From positions 1-49,119 of IMG/VR virus record IMGVR_UViG_3300005253_000048: a stretch of 49,119 nucleotides of DNA; one strand, 5' to 3'. The notes under the pieces are model-generated. The model saw nothing but the letters and a program-made list of their open reading frames with translations. It was not told the DNA's origin and made no database searches. The DNA is from a virus. Below, in pieces: positions 1 through 45,243 of this stretch; the stretch's first letter is position 1; the number at the start of each line of letters is the position of its first letter. The position numbers were made by a program, and so were the translations under genes.

Positions 1-105
1 ACCCGGATTGTCGCCGTTGTTCGTAGCGCAGAAAGGTTCAAGCCTTCCGGGTTCGCACGGGCCGCCCCAGCGCACGTCGCAGTGAATTTCAATCCAGATT
101 GCCAT
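1..105 (-). CDS. 5' part of the zinc-binding-like small protein that crosses the contig join (partial)
   Basis: This is the duplicated start of the 83-residue gene at 48852-49103; only the first 35 codons fit here before the contig end. The ATG (complement of 103-105) directly follows the TAG stop of the 39-codon gene at 106-225, so the two form one leftward transcript. See the full copy for the protein description. Confidence 0.85.
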   Translation of the reverse strand, partial: MAIWIEIHCDVRWGGPCEPGRLEPFCATNNGDNPG

Positions 106-121
106 CTACACCACATCCCTC
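1..121. repeat. Terminal direct repeat, left copy
   Basis: Bases 1-121 are identical to 48999-49119. An exact terminal overlap like this is what an assembler leaves when it closes a circle or assembles a circularly permuted phage genome. The non-redundant genome is therefore 48,998 bp. A real short terminal repeat in the virion DNA is possible but less likely, because a gene (48852-49103) reads straight through the right copy. Confidence 0.95.
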
Positions 122-225
122 ATTTCTTCCGCCTCCATGACTTGCGCCATCGTTCTGTGCTCCCGAAACGCCCATGACGCGCCAGGTGGCACGTCCCTCG
201 CAGGGCGCGGCTCGTCATCGGTCAT
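106..225 (-). CDS. Small 39-residue protein, unknown
   Basis: An ATG at 225 follows a strong AAGGAGG ribosome-binding site seven bases upstream, and the TAG stop abuts the ATG of the next gene. The product is short and acidic (it begins MTDDEPRP) with no recognisable domain. The strong Shine-Dalgarno and exact tiling between two neighbours are the only support. It belongs to the leftward early operon. Confidence 0.6.
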   Translation of the reverse strand: MTDDEPRPARDVPPGASWAFREHRTMAQVMEAEEMRDVV

Positions 226-237
226 GACGCGCCTCCT

Positions 238-756
238 TCAGCCATGCCCTGCCACAATATCTCTAACCTTCCGCGCCCGTTCCTCTGGCGCTCCCCAAGA
301 AGCTGCCGCTTCTTCCCGCTGCCGTTCCTCAGCCTGTCGCCGTTCATGTTCGGCAAGGTGCCGCTTGGCTATAGCACGGGCCATGAGCCGCTTTGTGGCT
401 ATTTGGTGGCAAGCCTTGTTCACGTCGGCCCTGGTCGGCAACTGGTAGCGTCCCCGCGTCAAGGCATCCACGGCCTCAGCCCCTATATCCGGGCCGTGCT
501 CAGCCAATATTGAAATCAGGCCGCGAGCGTAAACCTCTGGGTCCGTCGTCTCCGATTTCGGGTAGCTGGAAACGAGGATATCCGCGAGGCGGCTGGCCTG
601 ATCTTGGGTACACGATGCGCCGATAACCACACCGTCAAGTATTGCCATGCAGTCTGCTCTGGATACAAGCACACCATTCCTCGACACATCCAGCGAGTGC
701 AGTTCCGTTACCGAGATAAGGTTTTGTCGCTGCACAGCGGGAAGATTATGCGTCAT
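238..756 (-). CDS. Hypothetical protein next to the replication gene
   Basis: A 172-residue protein with an AAGGAG site ten bases before the ATG. The first half is unremarkable. Residues about 100-115 read LTRGRYQLPTRADVNKAC, a pattern seen in small phage replication proteins, and the C-terminal third is a charged Arg/Glu/Ala helix. The start overlaps the end of the DUF1376 gene by 11 bases, so it is probably translationally coupled to it. A role in replisome or helicase loading is a guess from position and this motif; no enzyme motif is visible. Confidence 0.7.
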   Translation of the reverse strand: MTHNLPAVQRQNLISVTELHSLDVSRNGVLVSRADCMAILDGVVIGASCTQDQASRLADILVSSYPKSETTDPEVYARGLISILAEHGPDIGAEAVDALTRGRYQLPTRADVNKACHQIATKRLMARAIAKRHLAEHERRQAEERQREEAAASWGAPEERARKVRDIVAGHG

Positions 757-1489
757 CGCGGAAACTCCTTATGGCTTCAAGGGTGGGGCTGGTCGGCGCT
801 GGGGGCGGCGGGTCGGGTTGGTCATCCCAGCGGCCTTGTGTTATCCATGTTGAAGGATAGACGATGTAGCCCTTAGAAACGGTGTCAGACGCGTTGTAAC
901 GCAACATACCAGCCATGAGCACGTCCGTGGTTGCCTCGCCACGTTTGATAACACCAATATATAGGCCCTTGGCCTTTTTCTTACCTGTCTTTCGGAGAAC
1001 CTGAAACCACCATTCTTCAAAGGCCGCTTCAATATCTTTCCCATTTTGGGGGGCTATGGGGGGAGATTCACCGTTAGGTGAATCTTCTAGGGAAGGGGAA
1101 GGGTAGGGGGCATTGCCCACGTCATGCCGCGCGGCATCGCCTGGGCATATACTTTTTTCCTTTCGCCACCGTGACTTAGCGCGACCGCTCTGAGATTTTG
1201 ATTGGCGGCGGCAATAATTCCACTCATCTTTTAATCTGCCCTGCGCGATCCAATTTCCGTCGTTTTTGCAGAACTCCGCGATCACAGGCCGGACGGTTTG
1301 GGCTACCTCCTCGACGGTCCTGCGGAAGTGCCTCGCCAGCCATTTATCGTCGTTAGGTACTCGGCATTCCGGGGTGCGCCACATCATCATTAAGAGTTGG
1401 AGATACACGCCATGTTCGGCGTCGGTAAGGTGTCCCGTGTCCGCCAAATAGGCGTCGGTCCAAAGCGGCAGGGAAGGGAATTGAGCCAT
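746..1489 (-). CDS. DUF1376 replication-associated protein
   Basis: A 247-residue protein whose first 70 residues match the DUF1376 pattern: PLWTDAYLADTGHLTDAEHG followed by a Leu-rich helix, an MMWR turn and the PNDDKWLAR segment. In this family the N-terminal domain is a winged-helix-like replication-initiator module, and phage members act in DNA replication. The middle is basic and low in complexity (about residues 90-150). The C-terminal third carries EAAFEEWW and a conserved-looking YPSTWITQGRW element, as in phage replication proteins. The ATG overlaps the preceding stop as TGATG. It is the best candidate initiator or helicase loader, since no DnaB or primase gene is evident. Confidence 0.8.
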   Translation of the reverse strand: MAQFPSLPLWTDAYLADTGHLTDAEHGVYLQLLMMMWRTPECRVPNDDKWLARHFRRTVEEVAQTVRPVIAEFCKNDGNWIAQGRLKDEWNYCRRQSKSQSGRAKSRWRKEKSICPGDAARHDVGNAPYPSPSLEDSPNGESPPIAPQNGKDIEAAFEEWWFQVLRKTGKKKAKGLYIGVIKRGEATTDVLMAGMLRYNASDTVSKGYIVYPSTWITQGRWDDQPDPPPPAPTSPTLEAIRSFRDDA

Positions 1490-2991: not shown

Positions 2992-3098
2992 CGCAATCCT
3001 TTCATGGTGGCGGCGGGGGAAGGGCGTGAAAGGATGCGAAAACACCCTGTCCACCCGACCGCTTCGACTGCCGAGGGATCAAACCCCAACCCATCCAT
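2988..3098 (-). CDS. Possible 36-residue leader protein
   Basis: The ATG at 3098 sits six bases after GGAGGG, and the TGA stop overlaps the ATG of the methyltransferase gene as ATGA. The peptide has no recognisable domain. Coupling to the next gene and the ribosome-binding site are its only support; the alternative is 137 bases of untranslated leader. Confidence 0.35.
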   Translation of the reverse strand: MDGLGFDPSAVEAVGWTGCFRILSRPSPAATMKGLR

Positions 3099-3128
3099 AT
3101 TCTACCCTCCCATCGCGTTCGTCAAGTC

Positions 3129-3563
3129 CTATCCTTGCCCAAGGCGGCGTGCTTCCTTCTCACCCTCAACGCCTGCGAGTAGCCGCTTATAGACCTCGGT
3201 TCTGATAATCGAATCCTCGCTTAACCGCCGAACCGGCAGTCCGCGACGTTCGGCGTATCGAATCTCGTTTGCCGTCGATGAACCAATATATGGCTTGTCG
3301 TCCACGTCGGCATCGATCACGAAGATTTCATCGGCGAGGTCGATCTTGCGGAGATGGAGTTCGTCCATCGCGTCGGCACACCCTTCGTGTTCCGCAAGGT
3401 GATCCGTGAGGGCGGGGTCATACCACCATGGGAGAAGGTTCAACCCCATCGTCACTGCCAGTTCATCGCGCTCGATGATCCACTCGCAGACGGCCATGAT
3501 GGCAGTGAAGCGAGATGATCCGCACATGACGACGACCTTGGGCTTTGCGGTCTTCTCGGTCAT
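3129..3563 (-). CDS. Nucleoside 2-deoxyribosyltransferase-like protein
   Basis: A 144-residue protein. It begins with a Rossmann-like strand, VVVMCGSSRF, has HLRKIDLADEIFVIDAD in the middle (the usual Asp-rich strand of this fold), and then IGSSTANEIRYAERRGLPVR, which matches the family's substrate-binding Glu helix. Such proteins exchange or hydrolyse bases on deoxynucleosides or nucleotides and often serve nucleotide salvage or DNA modification in phages. The stop of the DnaA-like gene overlaps its ATG by four bases. Function is inferred from fold signature only. Confidence 0.72.
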   Translation of the reverse strand: MTEKTAKPKVVVMCGSSRFTAIMAVCEWIIERDELAVTMGLNLLPWWYDPALTDHLAEHEGCADAMDELHLRKIDLADEIFVIDADVDDKPYIGSSTANEIRYAERRGLPVRRLSEDSIIRTEVYKRLLAGVEGEKEARRLGQG

Positions 3564-3892
3564 CGATCTTCCCTTTCCTTGTCCGGCGGTTCTGTCAACG
3601 GCTTTCGCATCAGGTTCCCGACCGCGTACATGATCGAGGTATGGTCCCGATTGAAGGCACGCCCCAGCTCGGGGAACGAAGCGCAGGTTTCAAGGAAACA
3701 CCGTCGGATGGCCTCGTGTCGGCAGCGGACAAGAGTAGTGTACCGCCTGCGCGAAAGGAGTTCCAAGCGGGTGAAGCCGTATTTGTAGCACGTTTCGTCC
3801 TGAATCCGGCGGATTTGCGATATATATTGCGGGGGCGGCTTCACCGTCCACCCGTGGGACAGGAGGAATTCTTCTGCTTCTCTGAGTTCCAT
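3560..3892 (-). CDS. Stand-alone DnaA domain IV (origin-binding) protein
   Basis: A 110-residue protein. Residues about 35-95 match the DnaA C-terminal domain: YGFTRLELLSRRR, then RCRHEAIRRC, and GRAFNRDHTSIMYAV, which carries the DHT(S/T) signature that reads DnaA boxes. The AAA+ ATPase and N-terminal domains of DnaA are absent. The protein should bind TTATCCACA-like sites without nucleotide control, either to help start phage replication or to compete with host DnaA. A perfect DnaA box lies at 46009-46017. Its start shares one base with the stop of the 58-residue gene upstream (TAATG). Confidence 0.85.
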   Translation of the reverse strand: MELREAEEFLLSHGWTVKPPPQYISQIRRIQDETCYKYGFTRLELLSRRRYTTLVRCRHEAIRRCFLETCASFPELGRAFNRDHTSIMYAVGNLMRKPLTEPPDKEREDR

Positions 3893-4068
3893 TATGGTTT
3901 ATCCACCGGGGCGTACACGCGAGCCATCACGGTTTTCTCAAGCCGAGCCTTGAAGTCTTCGGAATCTGCGAGCGCGTTCTTTTTGCGGTGGGGTCGCGTC
4001 GGTGGTAAATCGAGTTCCATGCGCTTCAGCATGTCGGCGCGGTCCTCGTCTGACATGCGGAGAATCAT
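3892..4068 (-). CDS. Small charged protein, unknown (58 residues)
   Basis: The ATG overlaps the TGA of the methyltransferase-like gene (ATGA), and the TAA overlaps the ATG of the DnaA-like gene (TAATG), so it tiles the operon exactly. The product begins MILRMSDEDRADMLKRMEL, is mostly helical and charged, and has a basic HRKK stretch in the middle. No family is recognised. A small partner of the neighbouring DnaA-like protein is possible but only by position. Confidence 0.65.
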   Translation of the reverse strand: MILRMSDEDRADMLKRMELDLPPTRPHRKKNALADSEDFKARLEKTVMARVYAPVDKP

Positions 4069-12001: not shown

Positions 12002-12601
12002 ATGTTCTTAGGATATGCCAGAGTTTCGACCGACGATCAGGTGATGGACCTCCAGAGGGACGCGCTGGTAAAGGCTGGCGTCGATCCGGGGCAGGTCTAC
12101 GAGGAACAGGTATCGGGGGTCAAGACCAAGCGCCCCCAGCTTGATGCTTGCCTAAAGTCGCTGCGGAAAGGCGACACTTTGATCGTATGGCGCTTGGACC
12201 GGCTGGGACGGTCTGTCCCCGAGCTTATCGCCATTCTGGAAGACCTCGACGTTCGCGGTGTTGGCTTCCGCAGTCTAACGGAATCAATCGATACCACCAC
12301 GGCAGCGGGCAAGATGATCTTCCATATGCTGGCCGCGTTCGCCGAGTTCGAGCGCAACCTGATTTCGGAGCGCACCAAGGCGGGATTGAAGGCGGCTAGA
12401 GCGCGGGGCCACAGGGGCGGCAGGAGGTCCAAGGTGAGGCCCAGGATGCTCACGGCCATCAAGACCATGTTGGAAGACCCGACATGCACCATGGCCGAAG
12501 TGGCGGACAATTTCAAAGTCAGCCGAGCCTCGATCTACCGGGCGCTACAGCGTGACGCCGAGGAACAGAAGGCCAAGGAATTGGCCAAATTCAAGACGTA
12601 A
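12002..12601 (+). CDS. Small serine recombinase (resolvase/invertase family)
   Basis: A 199-residue protein, the normal length of small resolvases and DNA invertases. The N-terminal domain reads MFLGYARVSTDDQ with nucleophile Ser9, WRLDRLGRS at 63-71 with catalytic Arg residues, and a FHMLAAFAEFERNLISERT helix-E segment. The C-terminus (residues about 150-185, TMAEVADNFKVSRASIYRAL) is the helix-turn-helix. It could resolve multimers, invert a segment, or integrate at short sites; no large-serine-integrase domain is present. It has its own promoter. No matching invertible segment is seen near the tail-fibre genes. Confidence 0.92.
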   Translation: MFLGYARVSTDDQVMDLQRDALVKAGVDPGQVYEEQVSGVKTKRPQLDACLKSLRKGDTLIVWRLDRLGRSVPELIAILEDLDVRGVGFRSLTESIDTTTAAGKMIFHMLAAFAEFERNLISERTKAGLKAARARGHRGGRRSKVRPRMLTAIKTMLEDPTCTMAEVADNFKVSRASIYRALQRDAEEQKAKELAKFKT

Positions 12602-41417: not shown

Positions 41418-41632
41418 TGATGAACCGACGCGAATTCCTACGTACCCTCGCCGCGACGACGGCATTGATGGCCGTGCCGGTGGTGGCTGTCGCTACAGGA
41501 TGGCGACATAATCCAGCGTGGATGCTATTTACCGACAAGGACTATCAAAATGGCACTATTCGTCGCAGCTCATGGAGAGAACTACGACCCGGCTTGTGGC
41601 GGGCCACCGAAACCTACAATCTGATCAGCTAG
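41417..41632 (+). CDS. Tat-exported protein, moron copy 2
   Basis: A 71-residue protein (70 if the second ATG at 41420 is used); it overlaps the previous stop (TGATG), with CGCAAAGGA just upstream. It begins MMNRREFLRTLAATTALMAV, again a twin-arginine signal. The mature part NPAWMLFTDKDYQNGTIRRS, then PGLWRATETY, aligns with copy 1 (HPECMLSL...RHC...PIWGVVHGF). Its TAG overlaps the TerL stop by three bases on the other strand. The pair arose by tandem duplication. Function unknown. Confidence 0.75.
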   Translation: MMNRREFLRTLAATTALMAVPVVAVATGWRHNPAWMLFTDKDYQNGTIRRSSWRELRPGLWRATETYNLIS

Positions 41633-44088
41633 TACCCCGTGACATCACTCCGCCCCGCGTCATTCCATTCGGACTCGTCAACGTAATCCTCCTCGTCTCG
41701 CCGTTCGCCCATCACCACCGTCTGTCCCTCGCCGGCACCGAGCATCATGTACTGGGCGCTTTCACATGGATGTGAGTAGCGGTTCTTCTCGGGCACGTCG
41801 CGGAACTTCTCAGCCCCCGATACCTGGATTCGCCGGTAGTGATAGCCGCCGGCCATACCCTTGCGCGTCACCCGGCAGGTCGGCGAGACCAGCAACCCCG
41901 GCTCGCCGTCTATCAGCCGGCGCAGAGGTATCGCCACCGCTTCCTGGCGAATCACCAGGTCGTTCGACGGCGCCGGATAGGCATCAATGCCACGCGCCCT
42001 GAGAATCTGGAACGGCGTCGTCTCGTCTGTTTGCGCCCGCTGATCGCCCGACGGGTCGCCCCAGAACTCGAACTTGTGGCCGGCGTACTTGTGCCGCACC
42101 ATGGGGTTCAGCACTTCAGCGAATCGCGCCGCGCCCATGTCGTCGGTGACAAGTTCGTCGATCCATCGCCACTGGCCCGTCACCGTCCGCTGGCCAAACA
42201 CCGCGGCCGGTGTCAGCCCGAAGTCGATCCCGACGAATATCGGTATCCCCGGGATCGCTTCCAGGGGCTCCTTCGCGGTGTGTATGTGGTCGATGAACTC
42301 CGGATAGACCGGCTTGCCATCCTGAACGAAACCATACTGGTTGCAGTAGTACACCAGCACGTATTCGCGGGACTTGCCGGCGGCCCGGGTGGTGTAGTAG
42401 CCATCCTCGATGTTGGACAGGTTCTCCGCATCCGGGTTTGTCTGCCACACCCCATTGACCTCGATCAGCCCCGGCGGCTGGGTCCAGAACTTCCAACCCT
42501 CGGGCCGCTCGTCTTCGGCCAGCCGATACCACCAGTGATCGTCGTCCGGCGCGTTGGTGTCCATGATCAGGCCGCGCCAGGTGCAGCCCCCTTCCGACCG
42601 GGCGGGGAAGCGGCCTGTGCGATCCACAAGGGCATCAACGATGCTCTTTGGAACTTCTCGGGCTTCATTAATCCAGGCCCCCGTCAACTCAAGCGACAAC
42701 ACCTTCTTGGCGTCGTCAGGCCGGTCCAAGGCGCGAAACATGACCTCCATGTCGGTCTTGGTGCCGTCGCCGTTGTCGAGCTTGATGTGATGCGTGTAGT
42801 TGCCGCGGGAGAACGGCCCAACCCACTCCTCGCGGAACCAATCCAGCCACGTCTTGAGGGTAGTGTCCCTCAGTTCGCCGTAGGTCTGTGACGACCAGTG
42901 AGCCCGACCGTTGCGGCGCACAAAAACCCTGTGTGCCGGGACTTCCACGCAGTAAACCCTACCGCTGTATTGCTCCTTATACCAGCCGCGATATCGCCCG
43001 TGCGCCAGAAGGGCCGGTGAAACTTTCCGAGTCAGCGTGACGCTGTAATGATCGGCGTTGGTCGTGCCGGACACTCCGTTGATCGTGTACGGATGACCAG
43101 CCGGTTCAAGTAGATGAACATTCGCCGCAAGACCCGCCCGCAACGCCAATTCTTGAATATCGTCCGCAAGGCGTTTCGACGAGGTGCATAACTCCCTAAC
43201 TCCGTGGGCTGAGTGCTTCCCGTCTCCCGCCTCATAGCCTTCAAGAAAGGCCGTGATGTGTGCCGGTGGCGCATCCTTAACCCACTGGGGAACGATCTTC
43301 GTCGTGGCCCTCCCGTAGCTGGCCAGCAGGATGATTAGCGGCTTTGTCTTCGGCGTAACCGAAAGACGGAAATTCACCCCAGCATCGCTTCTCCGGTTTT
43401 CCGTGAAGACGAGGCCCGCTCGGGTAAACAGCGACCGCACATCATCCAGTCCGTTCTTCTGAGTGATTATGCAGGCATGACGCCCGTTGTATATCCCAGC
43501 CGAGCCGTCCGCGAACCAAAACCCAAGCCAGCGGAAAAACGCAACGGACCGCGTAGCCGCGCCTTGCCACACCGCATCGCGCTTGACCCGCATATTCTGC
43601 TTGCCGTAACACTCCTCGGCTTTGCGGAACCGATAGTCCGACCACTTGCCCCGCCGTGCGTTCCGAAGCGACACGTTCAACCGATGATCCGGCGTTACAA
43701 GGAAGTCCACGCCTTCATTCTCAAAGCCAATCATCTCGCCTACATGGTCGGCTACGTAATGCGAGAGCGGAACCACGAACTCAAGTTCGCCGTCGTCAGT
43801 TAGCTGGGCGACACGTTCTCCCGTGCCAAGGTCTGGGAACTTTCTCCAGCCGGTCTCCGTCAATATCTCGGTATCCGCCGAGAAACAGTTCCGCACCACC
43901 GCCCAGCGCGTTTGCCTTACCCCGTCCTTGTTTGGGGCCTGGCGGTTGGCCCTCAGCCAGATCTCCCAACAGCACGCCGTGGACTTGCCGCTGGCGTAGG
44001 GACCGCGCAAGCCCCGGATAAAGGCGTCCGATTCGTGGAACGCGGTCGGCGTCGGGCTGGCGTGGTACTCACGTCCCCGGCGGGTCAT
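41629..44088 (-). CDS. terL: Terminase large subunit interrupted by an intein
   Basis: 819 residues as translated. Extein part 1 has the Walker A GPYASGKST (29-37) and ends RWAVVRN. The intein is residues 68-401. Extein part 2 resumes TYGELRDTTLKTWLDWFREE, giving the usual RNTYGELRDTT junction once the intein is removed, then the Walker B/catalytic Glu segment VLSLELTGAWINEA (about 463-476), GLIMDTNAP, and the nuclease motifs FVGIDFGLTPAAV (Asp622) and GDPSGDQRAQTDE (Asp678). Spliced length is about 485 residues, normal for TerL. It pumps DNA through the portal and cuts it. Splicing is needed for activity because the insert lies inside the ATPase domain. Confidence 0.95.
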   Translation of the reverse strand: MTRRGREYHASPTPTAFHESDAFIRGLRGPYASGKSTACCWEIWLRANRQAPNKDGVRQTRWAVVRNCFSADTEILTETGWRKFPDLGTGERVAQLTDDGELEFVVPLSHYVADHVGEMIGFENEGVDFLVTPDHRLNVSLRNARRGKWSDYRFRKAEECYGKQNMRVKRDAVWQGAATRSVAFFRWLGFWFADGSAGIYNGRHACIITQKNGLDDVRSLFTRAGLVFTENRRSDAGVNFRLSVTPKTKPLIILLASYGRATTKIVPQWVKDAPPAHITAFLEGYEAGDGKHSAHGVRELCTSSKRLADDIQELALRAGLAANVHLLEPAGHPYTINGVSGTTNADHYSVTLTRKVSPALLAHGRYRGWYKEQYSGRVYCVEVPAHRVFVRRNGRAHWSSQTYGELRDTTLKTWLDWFREEWVGPFSRGNYTHHIKLDNGDGTKTDMEVMFRALDRPDDAKKVLSLELTGAWINEAREVPKSIVDALVDRTGRFPARSEGGCTWRGLIMDTNAPDDDHWWYRLAEDERPEGWKFWTQPPGLIEVNGVWQTNPDAENLSNIEDGYYTTRAAGKSREYVLVYYCNQYGFVQDGKPVYPEFIDHIHTAKEPLEAIPGIPIFVGIDFGLTPAAVFGQRTVTGQWRWIDELVTDDMGAARFAEVLNPMVRHKYAGHKFEFWGDPSGDQRAQTDETTPFQILRARGIDAYPAPSNDLVIRQEAVAIPLRRLIDGEPGLLVSPTCRVTRKGMAGGYHYRRIQVSGAEKFRDVPEKNRYSHPCESAQYMMLGAGEGQTVVMGERRDEEDYVDESEWNDAGRSDVTGY
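42886..43887 (-). mobile_element. LAGLIDADG-containing intein in TerL
   Basis: 334 codons. Block A is CFSADTEILTETGWRKF with Cys68 as nucleophile; block B is FLVTPDHRLNVS with the TxxH pair; block F is GRVYCVEVPAHRVFVRRNG. The end is AHWSSQ, followed by Thr402. The homing endonuclease core has two LAGLIDADG helices: WLGFWFADGSAG (187-198) and FLEGYEAGDG (281-290). The last residue is Gln instead of Asn and the penultimate is Ser instead of His; the next extein residue is Thr. Gln-ending inteins exist and use the same cyclisation chemistry. The element copies itself into intein-less terL genes. Confidence 0.93.
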
Positions 44089-44427: not shown

Positions 44428-45243
44428 CTACTCCCGGTCGCGTTGTCCTTGATGTTCCACTACGCCTCGGACAGCGTCGCAAAGTCTGAGGGCACCTATC
44501 ACTTCGCTAAGTGTCCCCGGGGTGGACCCTGGCGGCCCTATCTCAAGAACCCCGACCACTACCAAGAGTGCCGCCCTTAACCGCTCAATCTCATCGGCCA
44601 TCTCTCGCGCCTTGTCGCGCCCCACGATAACGGCCGTGGTGTTGGGGTTCCTCGCCTTCTCAATGAAGTCGTCAGCATAGGTCAGCATTTCCTTGGTCGA
44701 AACGCCGCAATGGTGGTTTCCAAGTCCGACATTCCCTTGTTCCTTTACGTATGTGTTCTGAATATGCCTGAACCCCAGCCCCTCGAACATGTTCACCGAC
44801 CGCTCGTTCGCCGGGTTAATGTTGGCCAGGTATCGGTCGCGGGGGTGCGCCTCCATCAGCTTGAGCACGGCACGAGAGCCGTAGTTGTTGCCCTGGTATG
44901 CCTTGAAGATGAACACCCCGATCTCGTCCGCCTTGGTGAGATAGACCGCCCCGACGATGGTGGGCGTCCGGGGGCACATGCGGTCCTCGGGTATACAGCG
45001 CACCCAGGCTTCGACCAGATACCACGCCGCATAGGGCCATGAGGTCACGAAGGCTTGGTGTTCTTCCCATGTAGGCATCGTCCGGTGGCTTATGCTCTGC
45101 TCAGCCGTGCGCTCCTCCAGAAGGCGGTAGGTGATGCTGTACCCGTCGGCGCCCAGTGTGCCGTACAGGTCAACCAGCTGCATGGTGTCCTCGGAAAGCG
45201 CCGCCTCGATGTTGGCCGCGCACGTCGGGATGTCAGGGGTCAT
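44428..45243 (-). CDS. GNAT-type N-acetyltransferase
   Basis: A 271-residue protein. Residues about 30-170 form a GNAT domain: the acceptor-side helix (THRTMPTWEEHQAFV-like), IVGAVYLTKADEIGVFIFKA, the acetyl-CoA loop YQGNNYGSRAVLKLM (115-130) and NINPANERSVNMFEGLGFRH. The C-terminal 100 residues are helical (YADDFIEKARNP; ADEIERLRAALLVVVGVLEI) and not part of the fold. It would acetylate a protein or small molecule. Lying between TerS and TerL suggests late expression; substrate unknown. AGGA lies nine bases before the ATG. Confidence 0.82.
   Translation of the reverse strand: MTPDIPTCAANIEAALSEDTMQLVDLYGTLGADGYSITYRLLEERTAEQSISHRTMPTWEEHQAFVTSWPYAAWYLVEAWVRCIPEDRMCPRTPTIVGAVYLTKADEIGVFIFKAYQGNNYGSRAVLKLMEAHPRDRYLANINPANERSVNMFEGLGFRHIQNTYVKEQGNVGLGNHHCGVSTKEMLTYADDFIEKARNPNTTAVIVGRDKAREMADEIERLRAALLVVVGVLEIGPPGSTPGTLSEVIGALRLCDAVRGVVEHQGQRDRE

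Follow-up and report, generated by a model that had tools for sequence, protein, structure and literature searches.

A class 1 intein ending in Ser-Gln at a shared homing site in viral terminase large subunits, and its Arg-ending sister clade

Introduction

In the window, a stretch of 49,119 nucleotides that makes up the viral record IMGVR_UViG_3300005253_000048, the reading frame for the terminase large subunit (TerL) is interrupted by an insert that looks like an intein and ends in Ser-Gln. The locus raises two questions: whether the insert is an intein that splices, and whether its ending is an accident of one copy or a rule of the lineage to which it belongs. Relatives at the same site, some of which end in Arg, bear on both.

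Results

Anatomy of the insert

The features of the locus are collected in Table 1. The insert begins with Cys, carries the TxxH of block B and is followed by Thr at +1, as in class 1 inteins, and it closes with the codons TCA CAG for Ser400-Gln401, directly before Thr402. Gln401 is one of the cyclising terminal residues named in a review (Asn, Gln, Asp, and Glu; PMC4031507). The penultimate His, which is typical of class 1 but not defining for it, is replaced by Ser400; this does not bar class 1 membership, because known phage inteins of this class can do without that His and have Gly, Lys, or Ser in its place, according to the available text of Kelley et al. 2016 (PMC5050341). The motif set is completed by two LAGLIDADG motifs that carry acidic residues (GFWFADG and EGYEAGDG) and a block F with both Cys and His (VYCVEVPAH). 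Profile searches with the insert matched LAGLIDADG_3 (E = 6.5e-7) and, weakly and below its cut-off, intein_Nterm (E = 0.0077). Assignment to class 3 was rejected: position 1 is Cys, G:5 is Ser or Cys rather than Thr, and the WCT triplet is incomplete, the block-F Cys by itself being insufficient.

Table 1. Positions of features in the window and, in the last six lines, of Arg-ending inteins in the loci named (arrow, splice point)
Feature	Position	Strand	Remarks
TerL gene (terminase large subunit)	41629..44088	(-)	819-aa precursor; 485 aa after virtual splicing
N-extein, residues 1-67	43888..44088	(-)	sequence
Walker A GPYASGKST in N-extein	43978-44004	(-)	sequence
Intein, residues 68-401, class 1 with LAGLIDADG homing endonuclease	42886..43887	(-)	334 aa
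Cys68, intein residue 1, first nucleophile	43885..43887	(-)	invariant among aligned relatives
Block B TPDH (Thr B:7, His B:10)	43684..43695	(-)	Thr and His conserved
LAGLIDADG motif 1, RWLGFWFADG region	43504..43539	(-)	sequence and fold
LAGLIDADG motif 2, ITAFLEGYEAGDG region	43219..43257	(-)	Pfam LAGLIDADG_3
Block F VYCVEVPAHRVFV, includes His386	42919..42957	(-)	His invariant in Gln-ending same-site relatives
Block G HWSSQ, penultimate Ser400, terminal Gln401	42886..42900	(-)	sequence
C-extein, first residues Thr402-Tyr, with Walker B and nuclease domain	41629..42885	(-)	
L001/L091 Arg-ending intein, FWCLR↓T	L001 3093-4115		
L089 Arg-ending intein, FWCLR↓S	444-1484		identical copy L088 from another sample
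L090 Arg-ending intein, FWCIR↓S	3001-4044		
L097 Arg-ending intein, IWCYR↓T	94-1155		
L107 Arg-ending intein, FWCYR↓T	15-788		partial
L110 Arg-ending intein, FWCYR↓S	3001-4050		

Deletion of residues 68-401 in silico gave a TerL of 485 residues with the junction VVRN-TYGELRDTT. The same joined sequence was found in two intein-free metagenomic TerLs, L004 (RTRWAVVRNTYREL; best segment 75% identical) and L009 (RTRWAVVRNTYGEL), so empty sites exist among TerLs. The TerL profile from PHROG (E 7e-17) spans residues 398-783, and the TerLs of named phages, e.g. Cronobacter phage Ss1 and Vibrio phage VA-RY-3, matched the exteins only, at no more than 48% identity. GC content is 64% in the exteins and 58% in the intein. 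An earlier note, made from the DNA letters, had placed a Gln-ending intein here, with Ser before the Gln and Thr after it, in the TerL ATPase domain. Its coordinates are exact and its motifs were all found; the insert sits between Walker A and Walker B, the codons are as given above, and the restored junction that it had described is the one seen in L004 and L009. Its view that TerL depends on splicing also holds in a conditional form, in that a TerL with an insert within its ATPase domain should need splicing.

The contig also encodes portal, major head, tail-spike, endolysin, and Erf-type annealing genes. A DNA-invertase-type serine recombinase lies at 12002-12601 (+) (PHROG 125, E 1.6e-71), and the gene directly upstream of TerL, at 44428-45243 (-), has an acetyltransferase match (PHROG 1249).

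Predicted fold

A search of the PDB with the intein sequence returned weak endonuclease and mini-intein matches only, and a fold search was therefore employed. AlphaFold2, run with 40 relatives, was used to model the intein flanked at either end by ten extein residues (pLDDT 93.4, pTM 0.91). Foldseek against the PDB placed the TliVMA intein first (1e-17), together with PI-SceI, PI-PfuI, and 2cw7 (intein homing endonuclease II), followed by the LAGLIDADG enzyme I-DmoI. The HINT fold is present in the predicted structure; taken with the sequence motifs, it identifies the insert as an intein with an embedded, predicted homing endonuclease.

A lineage at one TerL residue

Relatives were gathered from viral contigs by searching with the intein and its alignments, which yielded about 130 distinct related inteins; one scan of genome contigs added a single relative. 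Thirty inteins, the window's included, occupy the same TerL residue, after RN (rarely RD, RH, or RS) and before [T/S][Y/M/H]. With 29 other loci at that residue, most of them with the same ending, the presence of an intein at this spot is far beyond chance. In a tree computed without the last three intein residues, the 30 grouped together in a single supported clade (SH-aLRT 99), in which Gln is the main state. The nearest relatives of the window intein are L082 (53-54% identical, ending CSQ) and L133 (ending CSN). The clade lies within a wider supported group that also takes in inteins at AP↓[T/S] of other TerLs; judging from sequence, that motif apparently corresponds in structure to the RN site. 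These near-outgroup inteins at [T]AP↓[T/S] (L102-L106, L109, L111-L115, and L118) share the VRRNG..[W] tail with the window intein, but where the latter ends in Ser-Gln and has the block-F His, they end in Gly-Asn and mostly have PSG.

Several TerL frames hold more than one intein. L126 and L098 apparently carry three each: one in the P-loop, a Gln-ending one at the RN site, and one in the nuclease domain. The L126 contig, JAHEYD010000005.1, is labelled as a Nitrosotalea MAG, an archaeal label that may reflect a binned virus contig. Inside its P-loop, L008 (from 108), which is related to the window TerL, has a different intein that ends in Gly-Asn (GPVG↓C...TGN↓SGKST).

In pairs of Gln-type inteins, synonymous sites were saturated and amino-acid change was low, the pattern of purifying selection on both splicing halves; no dN/dS ratio is given because of the saturation. 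These pairs bear on whether the insert might instead belong to TerL permanently, as a domain, or be a dead, non-splicing intein. The Arg-ending sisters described below lend that reading something, as they show that an intact TerL frame can hold a terminal residue expected to block standard splicing. However, all class 1 catalytic residues are retained in the window insert, which splits the ATPase domain between its two Walker motifs; related TerLs do without it, and both splicing halves are under purifying selection in related pairs. A permanent domain or dead intein is thus scarcely credible as an account of the insert.

The terminal residue and the block-F His

The last residue was then compared between sites. 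At the RN site, where L098, L099, and L138 were counted by hand assignment, it is Gln in 22 of 30 inteins, Arg in six, and Asn in two. Elsewhere, at about 101 sites spread over many proteins, Asn stands last in 99 and Gln in two, the ending being almost always Gly-Asn. Ser precedes the Gln in 18 of the 22 RN-site inteins that end in it, and Gly or Met in the others. The earlier note had taken Ser-Gln for a peculiarity; at the RN site it is the norm.

A block-F His (PTH, PSH, PAH, etc.) is present in all 22 Gln enders at the RN site and in both of those elsewhere, but only in about half of the inteins that end in Asn at other sites. L156 and L171 (CGQ↓T at the site KNNH↓C), the two that end in Gln away from the RN site, apparently represent an independent origin of Gln. 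Two RN-site inteins, L133 and L231, end in Ser-Asn, probably by reversion from Gln. Since Gln predates the divergence of the RN-site inteins to 40-50% identity, it is a stable state rather than a lesion, and the ending is therefore an old, maintained trait of the lineage. The invariant block-F His suggests, from the alignment, a well-adapted site.

The earlier note had also suggested that a slow Gln-dependent step could time packaging; in a fuller form, this reading makes the step an evolved timer that holds packaging back until late infection. Published Gln-ending inteins go both ways and leave the proposal unsupported: the Pab and Mma Pol II inteins are slow, Gln making Pab slower than Asn does, whereas for the CIV RNR intein Gln is the better of the two residues (PMC4031507). 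In favour of a timer, besides the slow Pab splicing, a comparable role for TerL inteins in governing packaging had already been put forward for cyanophage Mic1, as an untried suggestion (PMC7156551). Against a timer, Gln is found across inteins that are only about 40-50% identical and sit in very different TerLs, which makes it a trait of the lineage and not one tuned to this phage, and the RN-site members L133 and L231 end in Asn. A timing function is very unlikely.

An Arg-ending sister clade

Six distinct RN-site inteins end in Arg, with the pattern [L/I/Y]R↓[S/T] (Table 1). A pattern search for the N-junction and an independent search for the C-junction (six hits, all Arg-type) recovered members of the same group, which forms one clade (support 91) beside L100, an intein ending in Ser-Gln. 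They share the window intein's TerL site and family at about 40-45% identity. The Arg and Gln groups differ most at the C-terminal splice region: the block-F His is replaced by Ile or Val followed by Pro in all six, with further changes of Val to Leu/Met, Asn to Lys (in most), Ser to Leu/Ile/Tyr at the penultimate position, and Gln to Arg at the last, where the window intein has His, Ser, and Gln. The modelled Arg-type structure was also confident (pLDDT 90) and matched the same solved inteins. No close relative of the Arg type was found in phage and plasmid collections.

Two other explanations were rejected. The first was a shifted C-terminal boundary: there is no conserved Asn, Gln, or Asp near the junction, and only a cut at Arg↓[S/T] restores RN[S/T]Y. 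The second was recoding of a single codon: the terminal Arg is encoded by three different codons (CGG, AGG, and CGA).

The Arg-type TerLs look intact. Between Arg-type pairs, both splicing halves, like the exteins, show little amino-acid change alongside saturated synonymous change. L089 (Arg) and L126 (Gln) share 76% identity in their C-exteins but only 39% in their inteins; thus, the two types occupy nearly the same host protein. L090 carries, besides its Arg-ending RN-site intein, a second intein ending in Gly-Asn in the nuclease domain. The Arg-ending sisters lack the cyclisable C-terminal residue that belongs to class 1, and they either use an unreported C-terminal cleavage, stall at an intermediate that TerL tolerates, or are dead.

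One tentative reading is that the Arg enders, derived from a Gln ancestor, excise by a cleavage that uses none of Asn, Gln, Asp, and Glu; for example, the Arg side chain might close into a six-membered lactam. Attack of the arginine side chain on its own carbonyl to give such a lactam is a side reaction that activated arginine undergoes during peptide synthesis, and cyclisation of Gln likewise gives a six-membered ring. The guanidinium group is, however, a poor nucleophile at neutral pH, and Arg is chemically poor as a cyclising residue. Conservation argues against plain decay and the chemistry argues against cyclisation, so we hold a new reaction to be possible at well under an even chance.

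The Arg enders might equally be recently broken inteins in defective phages, or assembly errors, a reading that we likewise regard as possible but doubtful. Besides the chemistry, it draws on a further Arg-type contig, IMGVR 3300002231_000776 (L223/L282), with apparent frameshifts at the C-terminal end. The intein there reads like FWC-IR-TNPEL across frames, from sequencing error or decay. No second TerL was seen on the Arg-type contig fragments examined; being fragments, they leave room for one elsewhere. Yet six different sequences with three Arg codons form one clade, identical copies come from two samples, two independent junction patterns find the group, and saturated synonymous change goes with conserved protein and intact TerL exteins. 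Searches of the open literature found no precedent for a C-terminal Arg, an arginine lactam, or a glutarimide in inteins; subscription papers and intein databases lay outside this search, and the missing Arg precedent is not proof of absence.

Discussion

The window insert is very probably a mobile class 1 intein at an old TerL homing site, VVRN↓[T/S]Y, past the P-loop helix and ahead of Walker B, with cyclisation of Gln401 assisted by His386. In this model, Cys68 would form the N-terminal thioester, Thr402 would receive the N-extein, and Gln401 would cyclise to a glutarimide to release the intein. His386 in block F would supply the help given elsewhere by a penultimate His, and the putative endonuclease, whose two acidic LAGLIDADG motifs go with the I-DmoI fold matches, would copy the intein into empty TerL genes. 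From the sequence comparisons, it is most likely that His386 aids Gln401. In Gln-ending Pyrococcus Pol II inteins, a block-F His lies beside the terminal Gln and is thought to activate cyclisation (PMC8229266, PMC8175363). By analogy, the simplest reading of Ser400 is that it is tolerated since His386 does the work, in line with the discussion of phage inteins without a penultimate His in the available text of PMC5050341. The model draws on sequence and modelled structure, and the window copy, from one metagenomic record, may be splicing-defective.

The nearest described systems differ from the window intein in different respects. Like it, the mycobacteriophage TerL inteins lie in the TerL ATPase domain; the available text of Kelley et al. 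2016 reports that several were shown to splice and that some have active LAGLIDADG endonucleases, where that of the window is predicted (PMC5050341). The sites listed there (P-loop, a poorly conserved helix, Walker B, and the C-motif) are not that of the window, and the same text does not mention a C-terminal Gln. The Pab/Pho Pol II, Mma Pol II, and CIV RNR inteins share the Gln-for-Asn ending (PMC4031507, PMC8229266, PMC8175363), but Pho and Pab Pol II have a penultimate His and Cys at +1, whereas the window intein has Ser and Thr and sits in a different host gene.

The window intein is thus a class 1 TerL intein of a known kind, with the near-fixed Ser-Gln ending as its variant feature. For an intein lineage, ending in Gln can be a stable rule and need not be an accident, and strict co-conservation in 22 sequences ties this ending to the block-F His. 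Gly-Asn, Ser-Gln, and Arg endings form a natural series around one homing site in related host proteins, with the Ser-Asn enders L133 and L231 as useful natural controls, and with this series it can be tested directly which residues are able to end an intein. If the Arg ending proves active, it would represent a new peptide-cleavage reaction for protein engineering.
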